Shown in pieces: positions 10,561 through 53,652 of a stretch of DNA of 53,652 nucleotides. Each line of letters starts with the position of its first letter. Positions within the stretch are counted from its first letter, which is position 1. The notes beneath the pieces are model-generated. The model saw only the letters and a list, made by a program, of their open reading frames with translations. It did no database searches and was not told where the DNA came from. Source of the stretch: Candidatus Moranbacteria bacterium CG10_big_fil_rev_8_21_14_0_10_35_21 (GTDB lineage Bacteria > Patescibacteriota > Minisyncoccia > Moranbacterales > UBA2206); assembly GCA_002773095.1 (NCBI GenBank), contig PFCG01000017.1, forward strand, positions 1-53,652, read 5' to 3'. Made by a program: the position numbers and the translations under genes.

Positions 10561-11580
10561 CTACTTCCATTCATACGCTTCGAAAGCCCAATTGACCAGC
10601 GTGCGCATATCTTCCCAACGTTTTTCATCATCCAAAAGCACTGCCACAATACGATGACCCTCTGGATCTTTAGCCGCAGCCAAAAGAGATTTTCCGGCCA
10701 TCGGAGTAAAACCAGTTTTTCCTCCAATAAATTTCGAATCTTCCCCCACTAAAATATCCGTATTGACCAATTCATGCATATAGGTTCCATCAGCAGAATA
10801 AAATTTTCCGTCAGGAATACGCATAATTTCCCAAATTAAATCATATTTTAGAGAATAAGCTCCAATGCGAGCAATATCATAAGCTGAAGAATAACATTGA
10901 TCTTCCTGCCCATCTATTTCTAATCCTGAAGCGGTGCAAAAATGAGTATCCTTCAATCCAAGACTTTTTGCTTTTTCATTCATCTCTTTAACAAATTTTT
11001 CTTCATTTCCAGAAATATTATAGGCCAATGAATAAGCGGCGTCATTAGCACTATTCATTAGCATTACTCTTAAGAGATTAATGGCTTTTACTTTTTCCCC
11101 AGTGTAAAGACGATTACTTGGGCAAACTCCTGATGTCGGACAGCCGACCACTGTGCCAGGAAGAAGTGATGCTTCACGAGGAATAGTGACAATATTTGTT
11201 TCTAGATTTTGAATATTTTCAACAGCTAAAATAGCTGTCATTAATTTAGTCAGAGAAGCAATTTGAGTTTTTTTCCGTCCGTTATCATAATAAAGAATAG
11301 TTCCAGAATCAACATCAATAGCGACTGACGATCCGGCCCAAATTTTTTGATCATAATAATCTTTACTTCGGGTTGGGACAACTCCGGAAGCCACCGCACG
11401 ATCAATAGGAAATAAATTATATTTATTTAAATCAATAAAATCATTTTCACCCTCTTGTCCCTTATTTTCTCTAACAATATTTATTTTTTCTTTTCCTTTT
11501 CCCAACCAACCAAAATTACTAAAGATAACCCAAATAGGAATAAGAAAAAAAATAGTTAATTTTATAATTTTTTTGATCAT
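10561..11580 (-). CDS. dacA: D-alanyl-D-alanine carboxypeptidase (serine-type, S11); start refined to MIKKIIKL
   Basis: IASLTKLMTA (SxxK), MNSANDAAYSLA (SxN), GGKTGFTPMAGKSL (KTG). Confidence 0.9.
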   Translation of the reverse strand: MIKKIIKLTIFFLIPIWVIFSNFGWLGKGKEKINIVRENKGQEGENDFIDLNKYNLFPIDRAVASGVVPTRSKDYYDQKIWAGSSVAIDVDSGTILYYDNGRKKTQIASLTKLMTAILAVENIQNLETNIVTIPREASLLPGTVVGCPTSGVCPSNRLYTGEKVKAINLLRVMLMNSANDAAYSLAYNISGNEEKFVKEMNEKAKSLGLKDTHFCTASGLEIDGQEDQCYSSAYDIARIGAYSLKYDLIWEIMRIPDGKFYSADGTYMHELVNTDILVGEDSKFIGGKTGFTPMAGKSLLAAAKDPEGHRIVAVLLDDEKRWEDMRTLVNWAFEAYEWK

Positions 11581-11590
11581 AATAAATTCA

Positions 11591-12133
11591 TCAGGCAATC
11601 ACACTTTTAATTCTTGGATCTTTTGAAAGATTTTCAAAATCCGGGAGATTTTCCACTTTTTCCATTCCTAATCTTTTCAAAAATTCAAAAGAAATTTTAT
11701 AAAGATACCCTCGCCCATCTTTAGGATTTTCCATCCGATCAACCAATCCACGCATCAAAAGCGAACGAACAATAAAACTACAATTAACTCCACGAATAGC
11801 CTCCACTTCAATTCGAGAAATCGGACCACGATAGGCAATAATTGAGAGCACTTCTAGCGAAGCTCGACTCAAGCCTTCCTGAATTTCACTTTTTACCAGT
11901 TGATCCACATATTGAGCATTTTCCGGAGTAGTAGCCAATTGCAATTCATCCTCTTTCCTGATAATAATCATCCCCTTATTTCTTCCAGAATACTCGGTTT
12001 GAAGAAGCATGACTAAATTTTCCGTCTCTGGCTTAGATATACCTAAAATTTTGGCTATTCGGGAAATTTTCATCGGCGTCCCACTGACAAGAAGCAAACT
12101 TTCAATGGCTGATTTTATTTTTTCCTGTTCCAT
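11591..12133 (-). CDS. scpB: Segregation and condensation protein B
   Basis: IESLLLVSGTPMKISRIAKILG; LSRASLEVLSIIAYRGPISRIEVEAIRGVN; GRGYLYKIS. Confidence 0.93.
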   Translation of the reverse strand: MEQEKIKSAIESLLLVSGTPMKISRIAKILGISKPETENLVMLLQTEYSGRNKGMIIIRKEDELQLATTPENAQYVDQLVKSEIQEGLSRASLEVLSIIAYRGPISRIEVEAIRGVNCSFIVRSLLMRGLVDRMENPKDGRGYLYKISFEFLKRLGMEKVENLPDFENLSKDPRIKSVIA

Positions 12134-19407: not shown

Positions 19408-20289
19408 TGAACAAGTTACAATTTTTTTTCAACTGTTACGCTGATTCTGTTATTTTCGTTATGAAGTTGCAACAGATAGGTAACTTTTTACTAAATTCTA
19501 GGGGTGTTTGATAATTCAATGCTTGGTGGGGTCTATGAAAGTTGTATTCAATTAGCCATTCAGTTAATTTACGATTGAATACTTCTGGATCGGAATGGAA
19601 GTTGCCAAGTTGGATAAATTCTTCCTGTAAGGTGCGGTTGAATCTCTCATCGTTGGGATTATCTTTTAGTGTCCGGACTCTTGAATAGTATTGTTCAATT
19701 TGCAGTTTCTGGCAAGCGGATTTAAAATACTTTTCAAACTCTGTGCCGTTGTCATGGCCGACTCTCGGTATTTGGCCATCTAAAAGATAATACAATCGAT
19801 ATAGAAAATCCTCACCGTTTTTAGAACTTTTGTTTTTGTACATTCGGGCATAGGCTACTTTGCCATACTTATCCACAGCAGTGAAAATATATCTTTTTAA
19901 TCCGTTCCAGTGTACCCTTTTGGGATCTTTGGATTTATCCTCCAAGCAATACAGACTATACAAATTATCCCTATCAAATTGAGCAAACCATTTGTAGAAA
20001 GTTTTCTTGGATACACCGTAATGGCGAGCTGTCTGGATAGCGGTATTGCCTTCATAGTAGTAAATGATCCAGTCCAGTCGAAGCCGAGCTTCACGGGATA
20101 GCTTAAGCTCTTTGGACACTCTCCGCCAGCGTTCATATTCTTCCAATAACTTGATAAGTTTGATCTTGAAAAAGGTGAATTTTGACTTATACATTATGAT
20201 GAAATAATTAGGTAATTAATCCTGAATTTTAGCAAAATTTCTCAATTTTGCTAAATTCATAGTGTCACCTATGTATCTCATCTTGTTCA
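19408..20289 (-). mobile_element. IS481-like insertion sequence, approximate limits
   Basis: Integrase/DDE transposase ORF flanked by short inverted tgaacaag ... cttgttca; limits tentative. Confidence 0.5.
19436..20194 (-). CDS. Integrase-core (rve, DDE) transposase with N-terminal HTH
   Basis: YYEGNTAIQTARHYGVSKKTFYKWFAQFD; FTAVDKYGKVAYARMY; DNGTEF; TLKDNPNDERFNRTLQEEF; YNFHRPHQALNYQTPLEF. Confidence 0.92.
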   Translation of the reverse strand: MYKSKFTFFKIKLIKLLEEYERWRRVSKELKLSREARLRLDWIIYYYEGNTAIQTARHYGVSKKTFYKWFAQFDRDNLYSLYCLEDKSKDPKRVHWNGLKRYIFTAVDKYGKVAYARMYKNKSSKNGEDFLYRLYYLLDGQIPRVGHDNGTEFEKYFKSACQKLQIEQYYSRVRTLKDNPNDERFNRTLQEEFIQLGNFHSDPEVFNRKLTEWLIEYNFHRPHQALNYQTPLEFSKKLPICCNFITKITESA

Positions 20290-44797: not shown

Positions 44798-45865
44798 TTA
44801 AAATTCTCTTTCAGCCATATAATCGGCTAGTCCTAATAAAAATTCCTTGGCTTCCGAATTAAATTCCATTTTTTCTAAGGAATCTTTTCCTTGAGCAATT
44901 AAATCTCGAGAAAGTTTTTGAGCATACTCAAGAGCACCGGTTTCCAGAATAATTGAACGAAATTTTTCTATATCAGCTGACTTAATATTTTTACTTCCTA
45001 GAAGAGCTTCCAAAATTTTCTTTTGAGCTGGCGTTCCTTTTTCTTTGGCTTTTTCCACCAAAAGAGTTTCTTTCCCACCTTTAATATCCGAACCAACTTC
45101 TTTACCTATTTTTTTCTCACTCCCAAAAATTCCTAAAATATCATCTTGGATTTGAAAGGCAATACCGATTGGAACTGCGAAAAGACTCAAGTTTTTTAAA
45201 AAATTTTCATCCGTTCCGCCTAAAATAGCTCCTAAATGTAATGGACCTTCTACTGTATAGCGAGCCGTTTTATATTCATACATTTTCAAGATTTCCTCCT
45301 CAGAAGCTTTTTGGCGATATTCAATATAAATATCTTTAGTTTGTCCAACCACAGTTAAGGAAACGATGTTCTGAAGTTTATAGAGAGCCTTCAAAATTAT
45401 TTTAGAATCAAAGGAAGAATTGAAAATTATTTGATTGCCTAATGCCCCTACCATATCGCCAATAATAATGGCCATCGAATTTCCAAAGTGATCAACAGAG
45501 TTCTTGGGAAATAATTTTTTTCCAATTTTTTCATAATGAAGATTAACTGTTTCCATTCCGTGTCTTTTACCATCGCGATCAATAATATCATCGTGAATTA
45601 GTAAAAACATATGAATCAATTCAATACTAACGGCCGTTTTCAAAATTTTCTCCTTTTCTTTTCCACCAGCCGCCAAATAACCATAGAACATAAAAGCCGG
45701 ACGAAGCCTTTTCCCGCCAGCTAAAATTATTTTTTTGACATAGCGAAGAGAATCAGTAGTAATTAAATCGATTTTAGCGACTTCTTTTATGGTCGCATCA
45801 AAATAATCCTCAATCTCTTTGTCAATTTTTTTCTTGAAATCTGCTAGTTCTTTTTTTACATCCAT
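44798..45865 (-). CDS. Polyprenyl synthetase (geranylgeranyl/octaprenyl diphosphate synthase-like); start refined to MDVKKEL
   Basis: GGKRLRPAFMFYGYLA; LIHDDIIDRD; QIQDDILGIFGSEKKIGKEVGSDIKGGKETLL. Confidence 0.92.
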   Translation of the reverse strand: MDVKKELADFKKKIDKEIEDYFDATIKEVAKIDLITTDSLRYVKKIILAGGKRLRPAFMFYGYLAAGGKEKEKILKTAVSIELIHMFLLIHDDIIDRDGKRHGMETVNLHYEKIGKKLFPKNSVDHFGNSMAIIIGDMVGALGNQIIFNSSFDSKIILKALYKLQNIVSLTVVGQTKDIYIEYRQKASEEEILKMYEYKTARYTVEGPLHLGAILGGTDENFLKNLSLFAVPIGIAFQIQDDILGIFGSEKKIGKEVGSDIKGGKETLLVEKAKEKGTPAQKKILEALLGSKNIKSADIEKFRSIILETGALEYAQKLSRDLIAQGKDSLEKMEFNSEAKEFLLGLADYMAEREF

Positions 45866-46004
45866 AGTCTCAATTATATCTCTTTGATGGTATATCATCA
45901 ACTTTCAATTAGCAAGAAGCTAGAGAATATTACTCAATATTTCCATTCGCTGATTTTTTTGCTATTATTGACTTTATGTAACGGTTATTTAAAAAGGAGG
46001 TTAA

Positions 46005-46118
46005 ATGAAAAAATATTTTCGTTTAATAAAAAGATTTTGCACTGCCGCCGTTTCGATTTCTCGGAACTCTCCTCCAAAGGCGGACAAGAAAAACAGAAAA
46101 TTTTCTTTTCCTTTTTGA
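46005..46118 (+). CDS. Small plus-strand ORF with consensus Shine-Dalgarno running into the repeat; possibly truncated
   Basis: aaaaaggaggttaaATG; MKKYFRLIKRFCTAAVSISRNSPPKADKKNRKFSFPF. Confidence 0.35.
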   Translation: MKKYFRLIKRFCTAAVSISRNSPPKADKKNRKFSFPF

Positions 46119-46200
46119 AAAAAATTTGGGCGCGCGACATCAAAAAAATGTAGAGAAAATTTTTCTGTTTTGGAGTTCCGAAAATTCGGAACGGCGGAAA
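46041..46200. repeat. Palindromic flanking repeat, copy 1
   Basis: 83-bp core (46092-46174) shared with 53379-53461, same orientation, 2 differences; inverted arms aacagaaaattttc / gaaaatttttctgtt. Confidence 0.9.
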
Positions 46201-46230
46201 GCGGAGCTACGCTAAATTTTATAATAAGGT

Positions 46231-46267
46231 AAGCGTGCTTGTCCCGCCCAACCCAACGCGCACGCTT
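46231..46267. terminator. Hairpin between the repeat and the operon 3' end
   Basis: aagcgtgc ... gcacgctt. Confidence 0.45.
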
Positions 46268-46307
46268 AAACTAATATAACTCCCATTTACGAAATATGCA
46301 ATAGTTC

Positions 46308-47471
46308 CTACTTAATTTTAACAGCAATTGCATCTATTTCAAATAACAAATTATCTCGACAAATATCAGCATATACCGGAACAAACGGAATGTCTTTTAA
46401 TTTTGAATTTGCAATAAACTTTTTAAAATCAGTGTAAGCCTTTTTATTTTTGCAATATGCGGTAGCTATTACAATATCGCTAAGGCAAGATTTTTTGGTT
46501 CTCAATAATGATCTGATGCTTTTTAAAGTTTGCGCTATTTGCCCCGCTGCATCATCTAGACAAACAGTTTTTCCATTATTATCAATACTTGCTGTTCCAG
46601 AAATATACAGCGTTTCGGAGTTCTCTATTTTTACTGCCATTCCTCTTGAAAATAATGATCCATATTCTCGCGCCTCATTTTGACAAGTATTTTTCATTAC
46701 AGAAACAATGCATCTTGATGTTTTGGATATCAAAGTTAAAACATCTATAAAAATTTCTTCTTTCTCATTTCGTTTTCCCTGAATTCCTGTGCTGGCTGGC
46801 AAGTATTTTTTATTTTTACCAATTAAGCCAAACTCCTGAAAACATTTGGATCTTGCCTTATTAAATTCCGCATACCAATCGAGGATCTTTGGCATATAAA
46901 TCCAGGTGCGAATAACATTATTCATCTTATAACCATTGCTAGATAAAATATTCTTTATTTCAAAAAATGCATGTTCGGCTTGCTCACCTAGAGCAAGACC
47001 TTTTCTTTTTTGTGAACCAGAAATTCCCACAAGAAATATTTCCTTGAAATCGGCTGTTTCAAGAATTCTGCCGATAGATTCACCGCCAAAAAATACTGTT
47101 TTTGTTTTTACACTATTATTTTTTGCAATAACGCCGATGATTTGTATCCCTGCGATTATGCCGCCAACGCAAGGAGCACCCTCAATGAAAGTAAAGGGAA
47201 TGATATTTTCAGCAGGAAATAACTTTTTTATTAATCTATTTCTAATAGCAGTCGTCCTATTTCTCTTGGATAATGCCCCGTGAATTTTTTCTTGTAAGAT
47301 CCGAATGCCCTTATCTTTTAGTTGCTGATATATCTCGGAAAATAAATTACTAATCTGTGAATCGTCTTTAACGGCAACATTAAAAATCACGCTCATATAA
47401 ACAATTTTATATCCGCTATGTTCAATTTCCTGAATTTTAATGGATGCTTTTTCCCCTAGTTCAATTAACAT
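46308..47471 (-). CDS. Chorismatase-like protein (FkbO/Hyg5 family; RidA-like fold)
   Basis: NVIRTWIYMPKILDWYAEFNKARSKCFQEFGLI...LPASTGIQG; AREYGSLFSRGMAV...TLYISGTASIDNNGKTVCLDDAAGQIAQTLKSIRSLL. Confidence 0.75.
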   Translation of the reverse strand: MLIELGEKASIKIQEIEHSGYKIVYMSVIFNVAVKDDSQISNLFSEIYQQLKDKGIRILQEKIHGALSKRNRTTAIRNRLIKKLFPAENIIPFTFIEGAPCVGGIIAGIQIIGVIAKNNSVKTKTVFFGGESIGRILETADFKEIFLVGISGSQKRKGLALGEQAEHAFFEIKNILSSNGYKMNNVIRTWIYMPKILDWYAEFNKARSKCFQEFGLIGKNKKYLPASTGIQGKRNEKEEIFIDVLTLISKTSRCIVSVMKNTCQNEAREYGSLFSRGMAVKIENSETLYISGTASIDNNGKTVCLDDAAGQIAQTLKSIRSLLRTKKSCLSDIVIATAYCKNKKAYTDFKKFIANSKLKDIPFVPVYADICRDNLLFEIDAIAVKIK

Positions 47472-47480
47472 ATAACTTAT

Positions 47481-48812
47481 TTACCAATTTGTATCATTTG
47501 AAGTTAGCATATGATTAGCGCACATATGAGTAAAAAACAGATCTTTAATAAATTCTGCTTTTTCACTTGCTATATCAATAATTTGGAAAGAATGGTTGGT
47601 CTGCACATAAAGTTTTTCACCGTCCGGCGAAGGAGATATCGTTCCCACGCGACACTGTCTTTTTCCAAAAAACCCGGCGTTATTTTGTATTTCAAATTTT
47701 CGTATCAACTTCATATTTTCCGCATCCGCGATAAAAATAAAGTTTGGGGATCCGATAGCTGCTAATATTTTTTGTCCTCTGTGACTGAAAATATGAACAT
47801 TGGTTAATCTGAATAAATCTGGCTCTGTAAATACGGCCATTTCTTCTGGACCATTTTCAGTGAGTTTGTATTTATAGACGGAAGCAGGTCCGCGGAAATC
47901 AATATCGTAGGAAGCATTCCAAAGAGCTTTAAAAATATTGCTGTGCTTAAATTGAAAGTTGTGGCTTGAAAAATAAACAATATTTTGATCATTCGGGTCA
48001 AATTGAGCGTGAGCCGCTACAATAAAACGAGAGATTATCCATTGTTTTTTATTTTTCAAGTCTAAAATAAGAACCTTAGAGGGAATAATATTATTTTTAT
48101 CATCCACAAACATTCCCAACTCACAAGCCACGCAATATTGCTTATTATTGTTCACAATAATATCATGCATGTAATCCGAAAAGTTTCCTTTCCACATTTC
48201 CTCAATGTTTTCGTCATTAATCCTGCGCCTAGTGATTCTAGACGATACTTCATAGAATGGATTTTCTGTCTTTTTCAGTGAATCCGCGAGAGAATATGAC
48301 ATCTGATATAGTTCCCTTTTTTCCGGATCAAGCCACTGCTGAGAACCAAAAATATAATCATCGTCTGCGATTTTATATTCAACTGTCATTTTTTTGCAAT
48401 CAACAATTAAATATCCAAAATACGACCAAAGATTTATTATAAAACATCCGTCTTCCAATGCTGTAACTGCATGAGGAACAGTCATTATAGCCATTTGTTC
48501 CAAAGAATTAAATCCATAATGATATTTTCCCAATAATAACTTAATCACGGATTGATTTGGATATTTTTTATTCAAAACTTTCTTCAAATTATTCAAGCCT
48601 AGTTTTATGATATCCTTATGACTTATTTCAACGCAAAATCCTTCGTAATTTTTGAAATTATAAAAATAATAAGCATGCTTACTGTATTTAGATATCCAGC
48701 TTCCCTTGACGGTTGGCACAACTACCGAATGATTACCTGATGGTTTCAGTGGTAAAGTAAATTTTTCAATCTTTGCCTTAACTTTGTATGTTTTCATAAA
48801 ACTTTCTACCAA
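47481..48812 (-). CDS. Beta-propeller-like protein of unknown function
   Basis: Repeated blade-like segments, e.g. KILAAIGSPNFIFIADAENMKLIRKFEI, GTISPSPDGEKLYVQTNHSFQIIDIASEK. Confidence 0.6.
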   Translation of the reverse strand: MVESFMKTYKVKAKIEKFTLPLKPSGNHSVVVPTVKGSWISKYSKHAYYFYNFKNYEGFCVEISHKDIIKLGLNNLKKVLNKKYPNQSVIKLLLGKYHYGFNSLEQMAIMTVPHAVTALEDGCFIINLWSYFGYLIVDCKKMTVEYKIADDDYIFGSQQWLDPEKRELYQMSYSLADSLKKTENPFYEVSSRITRRRINDENIEEMWKGNFSDYMHDIIVNNNKQYCVACELGMFVDDKNNIIPSKVLILDLKNKKQWIISRFIVAAHAQFDPNDQNIVYFSSHNFQFKHSNIFKALWNASYDIDFRGPASVYKYKLTENGPEEMAVFTEPDLFRLTNVHIFSHRGQKILAAIGSPNFIFIADAENMKLIRKFEIQNNAGFFGKRQCRVGTISPSPDGEKLYVQTNHSFQIIDIASEKAEFIKDLFFTHMCANHMLTSNDTNW

Positions 48813-49456
48813 ATTAGCGGGATCATTTTTCTAACTTTTTTGCAATATTCAGAATATTTTATTCCAAAAATATCCATCAGAACAGCTTCCTCAAAATATA
48901 TGCGCCGAGTAAATGCGATAATTAGAACAATAAAATTTATAGCCACCGAAAACCATGCGTGTAAAAATAGAGCGCTAAAAGTATATGTTAATAATGCGCC
49001 AGCATATCCCGGGTGTCTCAAGAAACGAAATGGCCCTGTTTTAATTAAATTCTTACTTGTTTTGCGATCAATGTGCCAAGTGAATTGGCCTCCCAGCGTT
49101 GTAACCGCCCAAGAGCGTAGAATTAGCCCCACAAGCATTACTACTAACGCTATTGTAGTTATATAATCCCAATGCATGCTTTCCGGAAAACGTAGATATG
49201 TAGCTTCTGCAATAGTAATTATTTGGGTTATATAAATTGACCAGATTATTTGTAGGGCAGTCCCGCGATCTTCTTTGTCAACTGACTTTTTGAAAGGATT
49301 ATAGCTTGGCTGGAAAAACGAAGCAACTATACCAATTATTGCCATAATCCAAAGCTGTGGTGTATCAAGCATTTGTAAGTTTCCCACAATAGGCAAAATA
49401 ACAACTGTCGCAACAACTATTATCCCTAATAATATTTTTTGTGTATACAATTTCAT
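48806..49456 (-). CDS. ICMT/PEMT-like integral membrane methyltransferase
   Basis: GPFRFLRHPGYAGALLTY; YFEEAVLMDIFGIKYSEYCKKVRKMIPLIW. Confidence 0.83.
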   Translation of the reverse strand: MKLYTQKILLGIIVVATVVILPIVGNLQMLDTPQLWIMAIIGIVASFFQPSYNPFKKSVDKEDRGTALQIIWSIYITQIITIAEATYLRFPESMHWDYITTIALVVMLVGLILRSWAVTTLGGQFTWHIDRKTSKNLIKTGPFRFLRHPGYAGALLTYTFSALFLHAWFSVAINFIVLIIAFTRRIYFEEAVLMDIFGIKYSEYCKKVRKMIPLIW

Positions 49457-51141
49457 AATCCGATAGATTTTTTTATATGCCTAGTATCCAGGTGATGTGG
49501 AGAAGCACTCAACTGCTTCCATTTATATTGCGTATCTCTTTGACCAGACTTAACGCTATCTTTTAATATTTCATCCTCCCATTTATCATCCATAATATGT
49601 AAGCATGGTTTTTCGAGTCTGCCGGATCGTCTTTTTTGTCCATACTCAATATTGAAGATTGACAATAACTCGTCTAATTTTGGAATCAGAACGTCTGACA
49701 AAAAGATATCAGTCGGCTCTGAATTAATTTTTAGGAAAACATCATACCTATTTTTTTGTAGATTAGACACTGCTCGAAACTGTTGAACATCCAAATGATA
49801 TTGCGATTTTATTTTGTTTATCGCTAATATAAATTGATTCACATGCATTTTTTCTCCGGTTATATTAGTCATGTCTTGTCCCTTAGAAACAAATGCCACT
49901 TCAGGAGTATTTTTATAATAACCCGTTACCTCAACAATATCACTTATGTTATACCGAAAAAGTCCGCTCGTTGTGGTTAAAAGAACAAAATAACGCTTTC
50001 CGATTTCAAGCTCATGACTCAATAGCACGGATGGATTTTTGCCATTTATTTTTTCCTCGGGTATAAATTCATAAAAATTATTTTGAATCGCTAAAATACC
50101 TGAGGAACAATTATCTTCGTACGGCATCGAGATACTGCCTTCACTGGCCAGTAGGCCAGGATCCCTTTTTACAACATTTTTTCCATAAAATTTATCTAAA
50201 AATTCCGCTTGAAATCCCGCGCTTCCACCAAGCCAGCACCCAATCAACTTTAACTCTGGCCAACATCTCAAAGGAATAAGGCGATCATAATTTTTTAATA
50301 TTTGATCAAGAAAACTTGCTCTTTTTGGATCGGGTTTTATTTGGGATTGAATCTTTTTTATTATCTCCAAGTCCTTTTCATTCGGATTAAAATTCAACTG
50401 CGTATCCAATAATTTCCCTTCGCGAATTGAGCGAACTATTATGTCTTGGTGTTTTATGCCAATTTCTGCCAAGCGTATCAATGTGCTTGGATTTGGAGTA
50501 ATAATAAAAGAGATATCTGAAGCAAGCGCCATTCTCATAATTAAATAATATTTCAGTTCATAGTCTTCAATTTCCGAAACTATATATGGTATAACATAGG
50601 AGCGTGCCAATGCCCAAGGAAGATTTTTGTATATCATTCCAGAGGCACAACCGCAAGGAATACCTGATAGAGTATGTCCTTCAATCGCAGAGCCAGTAAT
50701 TCCTAAAATACCCCTATTTAACAATGCTGGATGATTCTTGGATACTCGATACAACCATTGGGTCATAAGTTTGACTGTAAGTTTTTGAGATTCATGAGTA
50801 ATAGGAATATATTTCGGCACCCCGCTGGTTCCGCTGGTTACATTAAACATTAGATGCTTATCTCGGGTTAAAATATTCTCTTTTCCATTAATAATCTTAT
50901 TTACAAGTGGCTCCAAGTTTTCATAATCTTGAATTGGAATTTTATTCTGAAAATCCATCTCACTGCGAATATCCGAAAAATTATGCAATTTTCCAAACTC
51001 CGTTTTTGCATTTTTGTTCAATATATCAAGCAATAATTTTCGTTGGGTTAAGCGAGGATTTGCAACTGCGCCCTCAAACGATTTATATAATCTTTTTCCT
51101 GCTAAATATATTGCCGTTTTCGCTAAAATACTGTTTCGCAT
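49453..51141 (-). CDS. GH3 family acyl-adenylating/amide synthetase
   Basis: LLLDILNKNAKTEFGKLHNFSDI; FNVTSGTSGVPKYIPIT; LLTTTSGLFRYNISDIVEVTGYYKNTPEVAFVSKGQDMTNITGEKM. Confidence 0.88.
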   Translation of the reverse strand: MRNSILAKTAIYLAGKRLYKSFEGAVANPRLTQRKLLLDILNKNAKTEFGKLHNFSDIRSEMDFQNKIPIQDYENLEPLVNKIINGKENILTRDKHLMFNVTSGTSGVPKYIPITHESQKLTVKLMTQWLYRVSKNHPALLNRGILGITGSAIEGHTLSGIPCGCASGMIYKNLPWALARSYVIPYIVSEIEDYELKYYLIMRMALASDISFIITPNPSTLIRLAEIGIKHQDIIVRSIREGKLLDTQLNFNPNEKDLEIIKKIQSQIKPDPKRASFLDQILKNYDRLIPLRCWPELKLIGCWLGGSAGFQAEFLDKFYGKNVVKRDPGLLASEGSISMPYEDNCSSGILAIQNNFYEFIPEEKINGKNPSVLLSHELEIGKRYFVLLTTTSGLFRYNISDIVEVTGYYKNTPEVAFVSKGQDMTNITGEKMHVNQFILAINKIKSQYHLDVQQFRAVSNLQKNRYDVFLKINSEPTDIFLSDVLIPKLDELLSIFNIEYGQKRRSGRLEKPCLHIMDDKWEDEILKDSVKSGQRDTQYKWKQLSASPHHLDTRHIKKSIGL

Positions 51142-51146
51142 ATTTT

Positions 51147-52307
51147 TTACTTTTTAGCCAGCACAATGATTTTGCTGGAATATTTAGACAAAATTTTATC
51201 ATCAATTTCAATTCCCAAACCATAACCTTTCAAAAGTGGCGCTTTTCCACCACGACCAAAATGTATCTCTTTTTTAGATATATCCTCAGCAAGTAAGAAG
51301 CTGCCAAATGATCCTTCTACAAACTCTGCATTGTTAAAATATGCGGCCAAAAAACGGCTGGCTACCGAAAGGATTGCAGTCTCACCAGCAAGACAACCTA
51401 GTTGTAATTTTAGTCCTGCCAATTCGGCCATTTTCGCAATTTCTAATGTCCTTGAAATCCCGCCTAATTTTGAAATGCGAAGATTAAAATAATCGCAAGC
51501 TTCATGTTTAATGAGATTTTTAGCGTCCGCAATAGTCACAAGTGATTCATCGGCCATAGTAGGTATTGAAATATTATCTTTTACTTTTTTGAAGTCATGA
51601 TAGTTGCTCCTTTTAATCGGCTGCTCAATACAGCTAATATTATATTGCTCGAGAATTGTTAGTGCCTTAATTGCCTTTTTTATTGTATATGCACCGTTTG
51701 CATCTAATCGTATAGAGCAAGTGTTTCCTAAAATATTTCGTATTTTTTCTATGCGAATTCGGTCATCATTATTGCCAATTTTTATTTTAATTTGCTTGAT
51801 ACCCAATTCTTTATATTTTTTTGCCAAAATTTCAGAATCCTTAATAGACCCTAGTCCAATTACTCCGCTATAGATAACGCTTTGTCGCTTTGGCCTTAAT
51901 AAATCAGAGAGTGATTTTTTTTGTTGTTTTAATAAACAATCTATGATGGCTAATTCCATCGCTCCTATAGCTGAATGCCAGGCGATGACACCCTTTGTTT
52001 TGCGATTTGGCAGACTATTTTTAATTTGAGCCAATGCTTTAATGGGGTCTCCGCCAAGTTTAATATCCGAATATTCCATACTGGAAATTTTTGGCCATAA
52101 AACTTTCTCTATATATTTAACCGCAGTTTGTATTTTTTCGCCTGTCACATAAAAACGGGGAGCTCCCTCCCCGTAACCGACAATTCCATTTTTCGTCATT
52201 AATCTAACAATTATCGACTCAGAAGTTTTTCTCACTTTCGTACTGTGGCGGAAAGTTCTTCTAAATGGAATCTTTATTATAAAAATAGTTGCGGATTGAA
52301 TTTTCAT
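51147..52307 (-). CDS. Enolase superfamily (mandelate racemase/muconate lactonizing-like) enzyme
   Basis: KQIKIKIG; SIRLDANGAYT; SCIEQPI; TMADESL; FNLRISKLGGISRTLEIA; GCLAGETAILSVASRFLA. Confidence 0.88.
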   Translation of the reverse strand: MKIQSATIFIIKIPFRRTFRHSTKVRKTSESIIVRLMTKNGIVGYGEGAPRFYVTGEKIQTAVKYIEKVLWPKISSMEYSDIKLGGDPIKALAQIKNSLPNRKTKGVIAWHSAIGAMELAIIDCLLKQQKKSLSDLLRPKRQSVIYSGVIGLGSIKDSEILAKKYKELGIKQIKIKIGNNDDRIRIEKIRNILGNTCSIRLDANGAYTIKKAIKALTILEQYNISCIEQPIKRSNYHDFKKVKDNISIPTMADESLVTIADAKNLIKHEACDYFNLRISKLGGISRTLEIAKMAELAGLKLQLGCLAGETAILSVASRFLAAYFNNAEFVEGSFGSFLLAEDISKKEIHFGRGGKAPLLKGYGLGIEIDDKILSKYSSKIIVLAKK

Positions 52308-52313
52308 AAAAGT

Positions 52314-52715
52314 CTAACTACGCGCTTGAAATTTTATTAATATATTTATCACATACACTTCACTTGGGGAGCTATTATTTGCCTTGAATGACAGAATTGT
52401 AATCATGCCGAGATTGAGCATAGTTACGCTGGTATTTGTTTTTTTTATAAAAAATGTATTATCTCTTCTTTCATTTTCCAATTTTAAAAGATTCAAAGCT
52501 TCGTTGATTTTTTTCTCGACAAATTCCGTGTGGTGAAAAATTATAAAAGAATACCGCCTTTGAATAAATAGACTTAAGGCAAGCAGAAAAACAGCCACTA
52601 TTATTTCTTGTGTATTTTTGTGATAAACCAACACAAAAACAATTGAGCAAAATAAAACTATTCCACCCAATAACCTAAACGATAGGCAGTTTATTCTCCC
52701 TAGAGCGATCTTCAT
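52314..52715 (-). CDS. Small two-TM membrane protein
   Basis: LLGGIVLFCSIVFVLVYHKNTQEIIVAVFLLALSLFI; in operon. Confidence 0.6.
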   Translation of the reverse strand: MKIALGRINCLSFRLLGGIVLFCSIVFVLVYHKNTQEIIVAVFLLALSLFIQRRYSFIIFHHTEFVEKKINEALNLLKLENERRDNTFFIKKTNTSVTMLNLGMITILSFKANNSSPSEVYVINILIKFQARS

Positions 52716-52727
52716 AAAATTAACTAT

Positions 52728-53174
52728 TTATGAATTCAATTCCAGCGCCAATTTTATATTTTGCAAAAATTGTTCAGCCTCTTTTTGGTTGGTTTGCTTC
52801 GCGACATCAAGCTTGATTTTTTCAAACAATGATTCCGGAGCCTCATATTCGACATCCAAAACTAAGTTTGTCATTCCATCATTTTCTGACAGTTGCTCTT
52901 TCCAATGGCTGGTAATTCCAATGCTGGTAGAGAAATTATAAGTTGTCGGGGATTCTATTTCATCAACTTCAACCGTTCCTTCAATTATAATCCCCGCCAT
53001 TTTGTACTTAAAATTGAATTTATCACCTTTTTTTACAGGCAGTTCAGGAACATCAGTATTTTCAATAAGGCCAGGCAATGTTAATGGGATATTATTTGGA
53101 TTTGTAACAAAATCGAAGACCTTGTTAATGGAAGCTTTAATGCTAACTTCGGCGTGCACTTTTTCTGTTTGCAT
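52728..53174 (-). CDS. SRPBCC/START-like ligand-binding protein (CoxG/polyketide cyclase-like)
   Basis: VHAEVSIKASINKVFDFVTNPNNIPLTLPGLIEN...; FKYKMAGIIIEGTVEVDEIESPTTYNF. Confidence 0.82.
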   Translation of the reverse strand: MQTEKVHAEVSIKASINKVFDFVTNPNNIPLTLPGLIENTDVPELPVKKGDKFNFKYKMAGIIIEGTVEVDEIESPTTYNFSTSIGITSHWKEQLSENDGMTNLVLDVEYEAPESLFEKIKLDVAKQTNQKEAEQFLQNIKLALELNS

Positions 53175-53223
53175 AATTTTTTGTTGATTAATTTGTTAAT
53201 TAAAACTTGTTCGACCTATATTT

Positions 53224-53252
53224 AATTTATCACAATTTTTGTCATTTAGCAA
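53224..53252 (-). promoter_or_regulatory. Candidate sigma-70-type promoter for the seven-gene operon
   Basis: Minus strand TTGCTA-N17-TAAATT upstream of the first gene. Confidence 0.3.
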
Positions 53253-53348
53253 TTTTAATGGGAGTTCCATGTTGCCGTCCGCGAACGGGTGGGTTTGGGT
53301 CAAGGACGGCCAAAGATACAAAAAGAGAGAAATCTAAAAATATTGGCT

Positions 53349-53500
53349 TTCCGCCGTTCCGAATTTTCGGAACTCCAAAACAGAAAATTTTCTTTTCCTT
53401 TTCAAAAAAAATTTGGGCGCGCGACATCAAAAAAATGTAGAGAAAATTTTTCTGTTTTGGAACTGAAATTTCTTCAAAATTTCAGGGCGGAAAGCGGGGC
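53349..53500. repeat. Palindromic flanking repeat, copy 2
   Basis: Direct copy of the 46092-46174 core; its left arm tttccgccgttccgaattttcggaactccaaaacag is the exact reverse complement of the right arm of copy 1. Confidence 0.9.
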
Positions 53501-53652
53501 GAAGCGGAAACTTTCTTCAAAAGTTTTCTTGGAAAAAAGTTCGAGCTTCGGAGTATAAAAATACCATCAAAAAACTTTCCGAAAATTTTGCGGTTTTTTC
53601 TGCGGCGATTTGCAAAAATCGCCAGTGTTTGTGCGGTGTGGCGCGCGCTTCG

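Follow-up and report, generated by a model that had tools for sequence, protein, structure and literature searches.

By what route whole operons enter the reduced genomes of Patescibacteria is an open question, and one locus of Candidatus Moranbacteria bacterium CG10_big_fil_rev_8_21_14_0_10_35_21 raises it in a concrete form. Near the right end of contig C21 (PFCG01000017.1; the whole 53,652-nucleotide stretch analysed is called the window here), a seven-gene operon (46308-53174) lies between two near-identical palindromic repeats. Are these repeats the ends of the vehicle on which the operon arrived? We consider it very probable that they bound, as terminal inverted repeats, the cargo half of an integrative island driven by a large serine recombinase (LSR) and located at the 3' end of a tRNA-Glu gene. 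The same kind of island, with other cargo and other tRNA targets, recurs across the phylum. Such an island is a recognisable vehicle, with its recombinase, tRNA target, attachment (att) sites and end structures, and because it is found across the phylum with both metabolic and defence cargo, gene gain in these mostly uncultured bacteria becomes countable and testable.

Comparison of the window with itself finds a direct repeat of 85 bp with two differences (98% identical) at 46090-46174 and 53377-53461, directly outside the operon. The right arm of copy 1 (46146-46202) also matches the left arm of copy 2 (53346-53402) in inverted orientation, over 57 nt at 89%. Both the near-identical direct repeats around the operon and the inverted arms had been claimed in the original prediction, and both are borne out. 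The pair is far beyond chance: no exact repeat in 20 Markov-randomised copies exceeds 19 nt, and the longest one in the window itself has 57 nt. Each repeat is part of a cloverleaf-like palindrome of ~160 bp, larger than the core (approximate extents, from a covariance model, in Table 1), in which an outer stem encloses three arms. Copy 2 folds into this outer stem and three arms with a z-score of -7.2; the fold of copy 1 is poorer (z = -2.4), owing to the rearrangement of its left, outer side.

The window stops at the end of C21, ~190 bp past the core of copy 2, so the structure is cut off on the right. The genome's own LSR homologue lies on another contig, C24, which begins abruptly. If C24 is placed directly behind C21, the sequence across the join matches the cloverleaf-to-recombinase stretch of a relative (G009) at 83% over 693 nt, with no gap where the contigs meet, and positions 53588-53652 together with C24:1-22 form an 87-nt perfect inverted copy of C24:1613-1699. 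C24 also carries the 5' half of a tRNA-Glu (GGCCCTATCGTCTATCGGCTAGGACGTCAGGTTC) after a run of N and, beyond the LSR, murF. The left flank of the island in the window is a polyprenyl diphosphate synthase gene, and this gene and murF are close neighbours in eight genomes of the same family (G006, G017, G018, G012, G003, G013, G021, and G025), all of which except G025 have an intact tRNA-Glu between the two (in G012 it begins GGCCCCATCGTCTATCGGCTAGGACGTCAGGTTC). It is because the two flanks adjoin in relatives, with tRNA-Glu between them, that we read the operon as the cargo of an LSR island at this tRNA. In most of these relatives, the tRNA-Glu ends in TAC without a full CCA; in G021 it reads TACCA and the two genes are 2.8 kb apart, so this site may not be empty, and the count of empty tRNA-Glu sites is thus six to seven. 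A second case is the tRNA-Gln next to dnaX, where G034 has an LSR behind a tRNA with CCA, and the tRNA-Gln of five congeners ends in AAC, with no LSR in the flank examined. Empty sites in relatives, which the original prediction had proposed to look for, therefore exist at two tRNA genes. Judging from these few sites, the island appears to supply the missing CCA bases. As a separate observation, small open reading frames (ORFs) that look GIY-YIG-like by eye seem to lie directly behind tRNA genes, beside the island on C24 (L092, 1760-2014) and at empty tRNA-Gln sites of other genomes (L192, L195).

Is this arrangement peculiar to one genome? A scan of GTDB contigs with nine LSRs yielded 79 loci, nearly all in Patescibacteria to judge by their record titles, 68 of which were examined for tRNA genes. 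In 61 of the 68, the LSR has a tRNA on the opposite strand at its 3' end, and in most loci the LSR match extends 25 nt into the tRNA. The targets include tRNAs for Arg, Gly, Val, Glu, Leu, Cys, Lys, Ile, Thr, Phe, Tyr, Ala, and Gln, and also Ser and Asn. The LSRs of relatives have Resolvase, Recombinase, and Zn ribbon domains, and the LSR is bracketed by inverted arms (P'), usually ~75 nt long and nearly identical, which in ~41 loci carry the last four to five or more bases (NNCCA) of the adjoining tRNA. Read outward from the cassette, the junction runs from P (GTTCGAGC..GTNGTANA) through NNCCA into P'. At the far end of the cassette, P and NNCCA give way to native sequence, in many cases to a hairpin resembling a terminator (L169, L172, L167, L183, L184, L165, L181, and L186), and in six loci (L169, L167, L183, L184, L165, and L181) the tRNA end and the far end share NNCCA as a short common core. 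In many loci the LSR lies directly outside one cloverleaf; of 38 loci scanned for the structure, 12 have it within ~700 bp upstream of the LSR, and some others fold similarly with other sequences. The order of parts in relatives is therefore tRNA 3' end, NNCCA, P', LSR (reading toward the tRNA), inverted P', core, P, cloverleaf, cargo, inverted cloverleaf, P, core, and chromosome. A different type of serine recombinase adjoins or lies near cloverleafs at L083:310-1998 (about 34% identical) and L228:14899-16212; cloverleafs may be used by more than one recombinase lineage. Two further ideas were considered. Cassettes without an LSR (L221 and L225) might be independent units moved in trans, but L221 keeps seven P' bases before P, which points to deletion of an LSR in that locus. 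A phage origin was rejected: only eight LSR relatives, most of them distant, occur in viral contigs, and the exact core pattern matched no viral sequence.

The direct orientation of the two repeats has to be reconciled with this symmetrical layout. At 22 loci elsewhere in the phylum, two cloverleafs ~1-9 kb apart are inverted, (-) then (+), with the same side outward. The exceptions are the window, where both cores are (+), L076, and L073, so that core flips are rare, in about 3 of 25 pairs (L075 and L082 were left out of both the flips and the 22 pairs; their GC-rich loop fits the usual orientation). The inner flanks of the window are inverted as usual, with the AAGCGTGC hairpin on the left and the GCCGTCC hairpin on the right. 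In copy 1, the inner half and the core are intact, the core being flipped relative to its own inner flank, and the outer half is rearranged: a degenerate second hairpin A stands where hairpin B would be expected, and there is no outer att half-site. A flipped core in copy 1 explains both the direct repeat and the inversion of the arms. The repeats are thus terminal inverted repeats that look direct only through this flip; the direct orientation claimed in the original prediction holds for the cores in the window and fails as the normal layout.

The same evidence bears on the proposal that the operon was excised or inserted by recombination between the direct repeats. This proposal starts from the pair of cores in the window, which are 98% identical and point the same way, but the cores are inverted in the 22 pairs of the relatives, the chromosomal break-points lie outside the repeats, at the CCA end of the tRNA and beyond P, and the empty sites have no single repeat left beside the tRNA. 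We regard it as very improbable. The original idea that the repeats mark a mobile cassette thus survives for the cassette ends and the empty sites, and not for recombination between the repeats. It had also been suggested that they are elements of the MITE (miniature inverted-repeat transposable element) or REP (repetitive extragenic palindromic) type. That dispersed elements of this kind, or BIMEs (bacterial interspersed mosaic elements), flank the operon by chance is exceedingly improbable, short, palindromic, and non-coding though the repeats are. The genome was searched for the core at unrelated intergenic loci, and no third copy was found in its 753 kb and 32 contigs, the next matches being short and at chance level (E 0.06 and above). 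Across the phylum, the elements are paired at cargo ends beside an LSR and a tRNA, and neither a DDE-type target duplication nor a DDE transposase was found in the island, among the ORFs and family matches of the window. A DDE transposon is likewise rejected, as the ends are set by P and NNCCA at tRNA genes. We also rejected an integron gene cassette, because the recombinase is a serine enzyme and not the tyrosine recombinase IntI; attC was not searched for.

The cloverleaf itself is kept by compensatory changes in relatives. These share the architecture and differ in letters: hairpin A reads GTTCCGAATTTTCGGAAC, TTTTTGCTTTCGCAAAAA, or CTCCGCGTTAGCGGAAG, and hairpin B reads ACTGAAATTTCTTCAAAATTTCAG, ACGCAAACTTCTTCAAAGTTTGCG, or CTCCGATGAAATCGGAG. 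In an alignment of 21 copies, 91% of the pair cells hold standard pairs, both sides have changed in 20 of the 39 pairs (none of 500 shuffles was as good), and sliding the partner by one to three columns lowers the pairing to 36-65%. A covariance model (R1) built from aligned copies, which misses divergent forms, finds the cloverleaf in 29 of 133 genomes of the order and, under strict filters, in 45 of 389 genomes sampled phylum-wide. Outside the reach of R1, cloverleaf-like folds were seen upstream of the recombinase in L112, L117, L120, L121, L149, and L152, several of which have a central arm GGGCGGGCAAAAA..TTTTTGCCCGCC with a C-rich loop and form a second sequence class. Two inverted cloverleafs only 52 bp apart at L215:6089-6460 make up a cargo-free cassette.

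A structure of this kind might instead act as RNA, that is, as a terminator, insulator, or non-coding RNA that shields transcription of the cargo and is no signal for DNA movement. It can be drawn as an RNA cloverleaf, and it stands at either end of the cargo with the same side facing outward. If one strand worked as RNA, G-U pairs should clearly outnumber A-C mismatches; the 2,877 cells of 79 non-redundant copies include 88 with G-U and 70 with A-C, a modest test since the alignment leans towards the model. A known Rfam family was rejected, the best match in a search of the element being below its gathering score. The lack of a clear strand preference favours a DNA role, and an RNA role seems unlikely.

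Paired cloverleafs enclose unrelated genes at different loci: type I restriction-modification together with a Panacea antitoxin (L074), hydrogenase maturation with HydF and two radical-SAM proteins (L075), DUF2339 (L071), methyltransferases (L216, L219, and L223, two of which also have OLD/Gabija-like nucleases), a sodium:solute symporter (L222), ArsR with a pyridine nucleotide-disulphide oxidoreductase (L230), and a leucyl-tRNA synthetase (L169). A TetR and ABC exporter cargo is near-identical in two genomes of different families, G068 and G090. This last case raises the possibility that the cloverleafs themselves are the recombination sites at which cargo is swapped or flipped, with the LSR merely anchoring the island. 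The core flips in the window and L076, and the copies, which are near-identical within a locus and divergent between loci as if homogenised, would fit. The flips are rare, however, homologous recombination between palindromes would account for them too, and no dedicated enzyme was found; we consider this quite unlikely.

We return, therefore, to an LSR-driven island with cloverleafs at the ends of its cargo, for which the following course of events can be imagined. A circular form would carry P-core-P', with NNCCA as the core, and the LSR would recombine it with the last bases of the tRNA; the tRNA gene would stay working and, at some sites, gain its CCA from the island. Each end of a cargo module would carry P and each end of a recombinase module P', so that an intact P-NNCCA-P' would be kept between recombinase and cargo. 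The cloverleaf would act as DNA, as a cruciform or single strand, probably in the role of an end signal for recombination or transfer. Several points weigh against this reading. The movement itself, catalysis by the LSR, the circular form, and what the cloverleaf does are deduced from sequence comparison; the C21-C24 join likewise comes from homology and synteny. The genome's own LSR frame is broken by a 1-nt frameshift near C24:566, which could be an assembly error, a run of N separates this LSR from the tRNA, and no left att site of its own was found. In addition, a strict-threshold cloverleaf match occurs in only about a tenth of the sampled phylum genomes. The island studied here is probably stuck, because its left end is truncated and core-flipped and its LSR frameshifted. 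As a tentative proposal that could well be wrong, the phylum might possess modular cassettes in which P' recombinase modules and P/DNA-cloverleaf cargo modules join through NNCCA at tRNA 3' ends and can be stacked or exchanged, with the cloverleaf being required for this transfer or recombination.

How does this island compare with known systems? The features by which an LSR integrative element is recognised are present, namely an encoded LSR (here a clear homologue with the frameshift), a short common core, and an empty site in relatives. The staphylococcal and enterococcal cassette chromosomes (SCC/ECC) lie at the 3' end of rlmH and depend on the large serine recombinases CcrAB (PMC6222049). 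They resemble the present island in being driven by an LSR and placed at a conserved gene's 3' end, having att sites with inverted repeats and highly variable cargo, whereas here many tRNA 3' ends replace rlmH and a single LSR replaces ccrA/ccrB, the LSR coding end falls within the att/tRNA region, and the LSR lies between inverted P' arms and the cargo between ~160-bp cloverleafs. In the excerpts of PMC5704250 that bear on this, integrative mobilizable elements (IMEs) with serine recombinases insert within genes, and tRNA 3' ends are typical of tyrosine integrases, so that a serine recombinase family using the tRNA 3' ends of nearly any isotype has a habit ascribed to the other class. The same excerpts give Tn4451-type IMEs a single LSR and a very short direct repeat at the ends, as here, and mention neither terminal cloverleafs nor inverted half-site modules. 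With the tRNA islands of tyrosine integrases, the present one shares insertion at a tRNA 3' end that spares the gene, a cargo island, and empty sites, but it differs in its serine recombinase, 5-bp core, and many tRNA isotypes. REP/BIME and MITE elements are palindromic non-coding repeats too, and are dispersed rather than placed at cassette ends. In the open-access literature, we found no earlier description of patescibacterial LSR islands that target tRNAs and have cloverleafs at their ends.

Table 1. Features of the island and its left flank in the window.
Feature	Position	Strand	Evidence
Right-end cloverleaf (copy 2), with outer stem, hairpin A, long central arm (GGGCGCGCG loop), and hairpin B	53343..53500	+	fold; R1 168.7 bits; helices backed by compensatory changes
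Left-end cloverleaf (copy 1)	46037..46207	+	covariance model R1 94 bits; flank comparison
Inner hairpin, left end, AAGCGTGC..GCACGCTT	46231..46267	.	sequence; similar inner hairpins adjoin other cloverleafs
Inner hairpin, right end, GCCGTCC..GGACGGC, G-rich loop	53274..53310	.	sequence; similar inner hairpins adjoin other cloverleafs
att half-site P, around GTTCGAGCTTCGGAGTATAAAAA	53532..53561	+	same motif at outer cassette ends across phylum; own sequence
att core TACCA = tRNA-Glu 3' end	53562..53566	+	TACCA at most tRNA-Glu loci of relatives
Start of P' arm leading into recombinase module on next contig (G000:C24)	53567..53652	+	perfect inverted copy
Left chromosomal flank: polyprenyl diphosphate synthase	44798..45901	-	neighbour of murF and tRNA-Glu in relatives
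RidA/YjgF-fold, chorismatase FkbO/Hyg5-like protein	46308..47471	-	PF01042, weak PF21168; TIGR04444 below cut-off
443-aa protein, no family above cut-off, weak RPE65-like match	47481..48812	-	
ICMT/PEMT-type membrane methyltransferase	48806..49456	-	PF04140
GH3-family acyl-adenylating enzyme	49453..51141	-	PF03321, PF23571, PF23572
Enolase-superfamily enzyme (MLE/OSBS/epimerase-like)	51147..52307	-	PF13378; TIGR02534 below cut-off
133-aa protein without family	52314..52715	-	
SRPBCC polyketide-cyclase/CoxG-like protein	52728..53174	-	PF10604

The cargo operon of the window, with its chorismatase-like, GH3, enolase-superfamily, ICMT, and SRPBCC proteins, resembles a small-molecule pathway, which is unusual in a reduced genome. 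Its GH3 gene is sporadic: only one other genome among the order's 133 has a counterpart, which is 31% identical. Among the other cargoes, the leucyl-tRNA synthetase gene (L169:6595-9018) is in an island at a tRNA-Leu (11532-11617), and L076 has a class II (D/K/N) synthetase between its cloverleafs; a link between target tRNA and synthetase cargo is possible in these two loci. Elsewhere in the same genome, a second serine recombinase, split over two ORFs (7678-9067 of L093, G000:C25:70000-88000), adjoins genes that look ParB-like and methylase-like and perhaps marks another mobile region, and an ORF at 19436-20194 of the window, unrelated to the island, resembles a transposase of the insertion sequence (IS) type.

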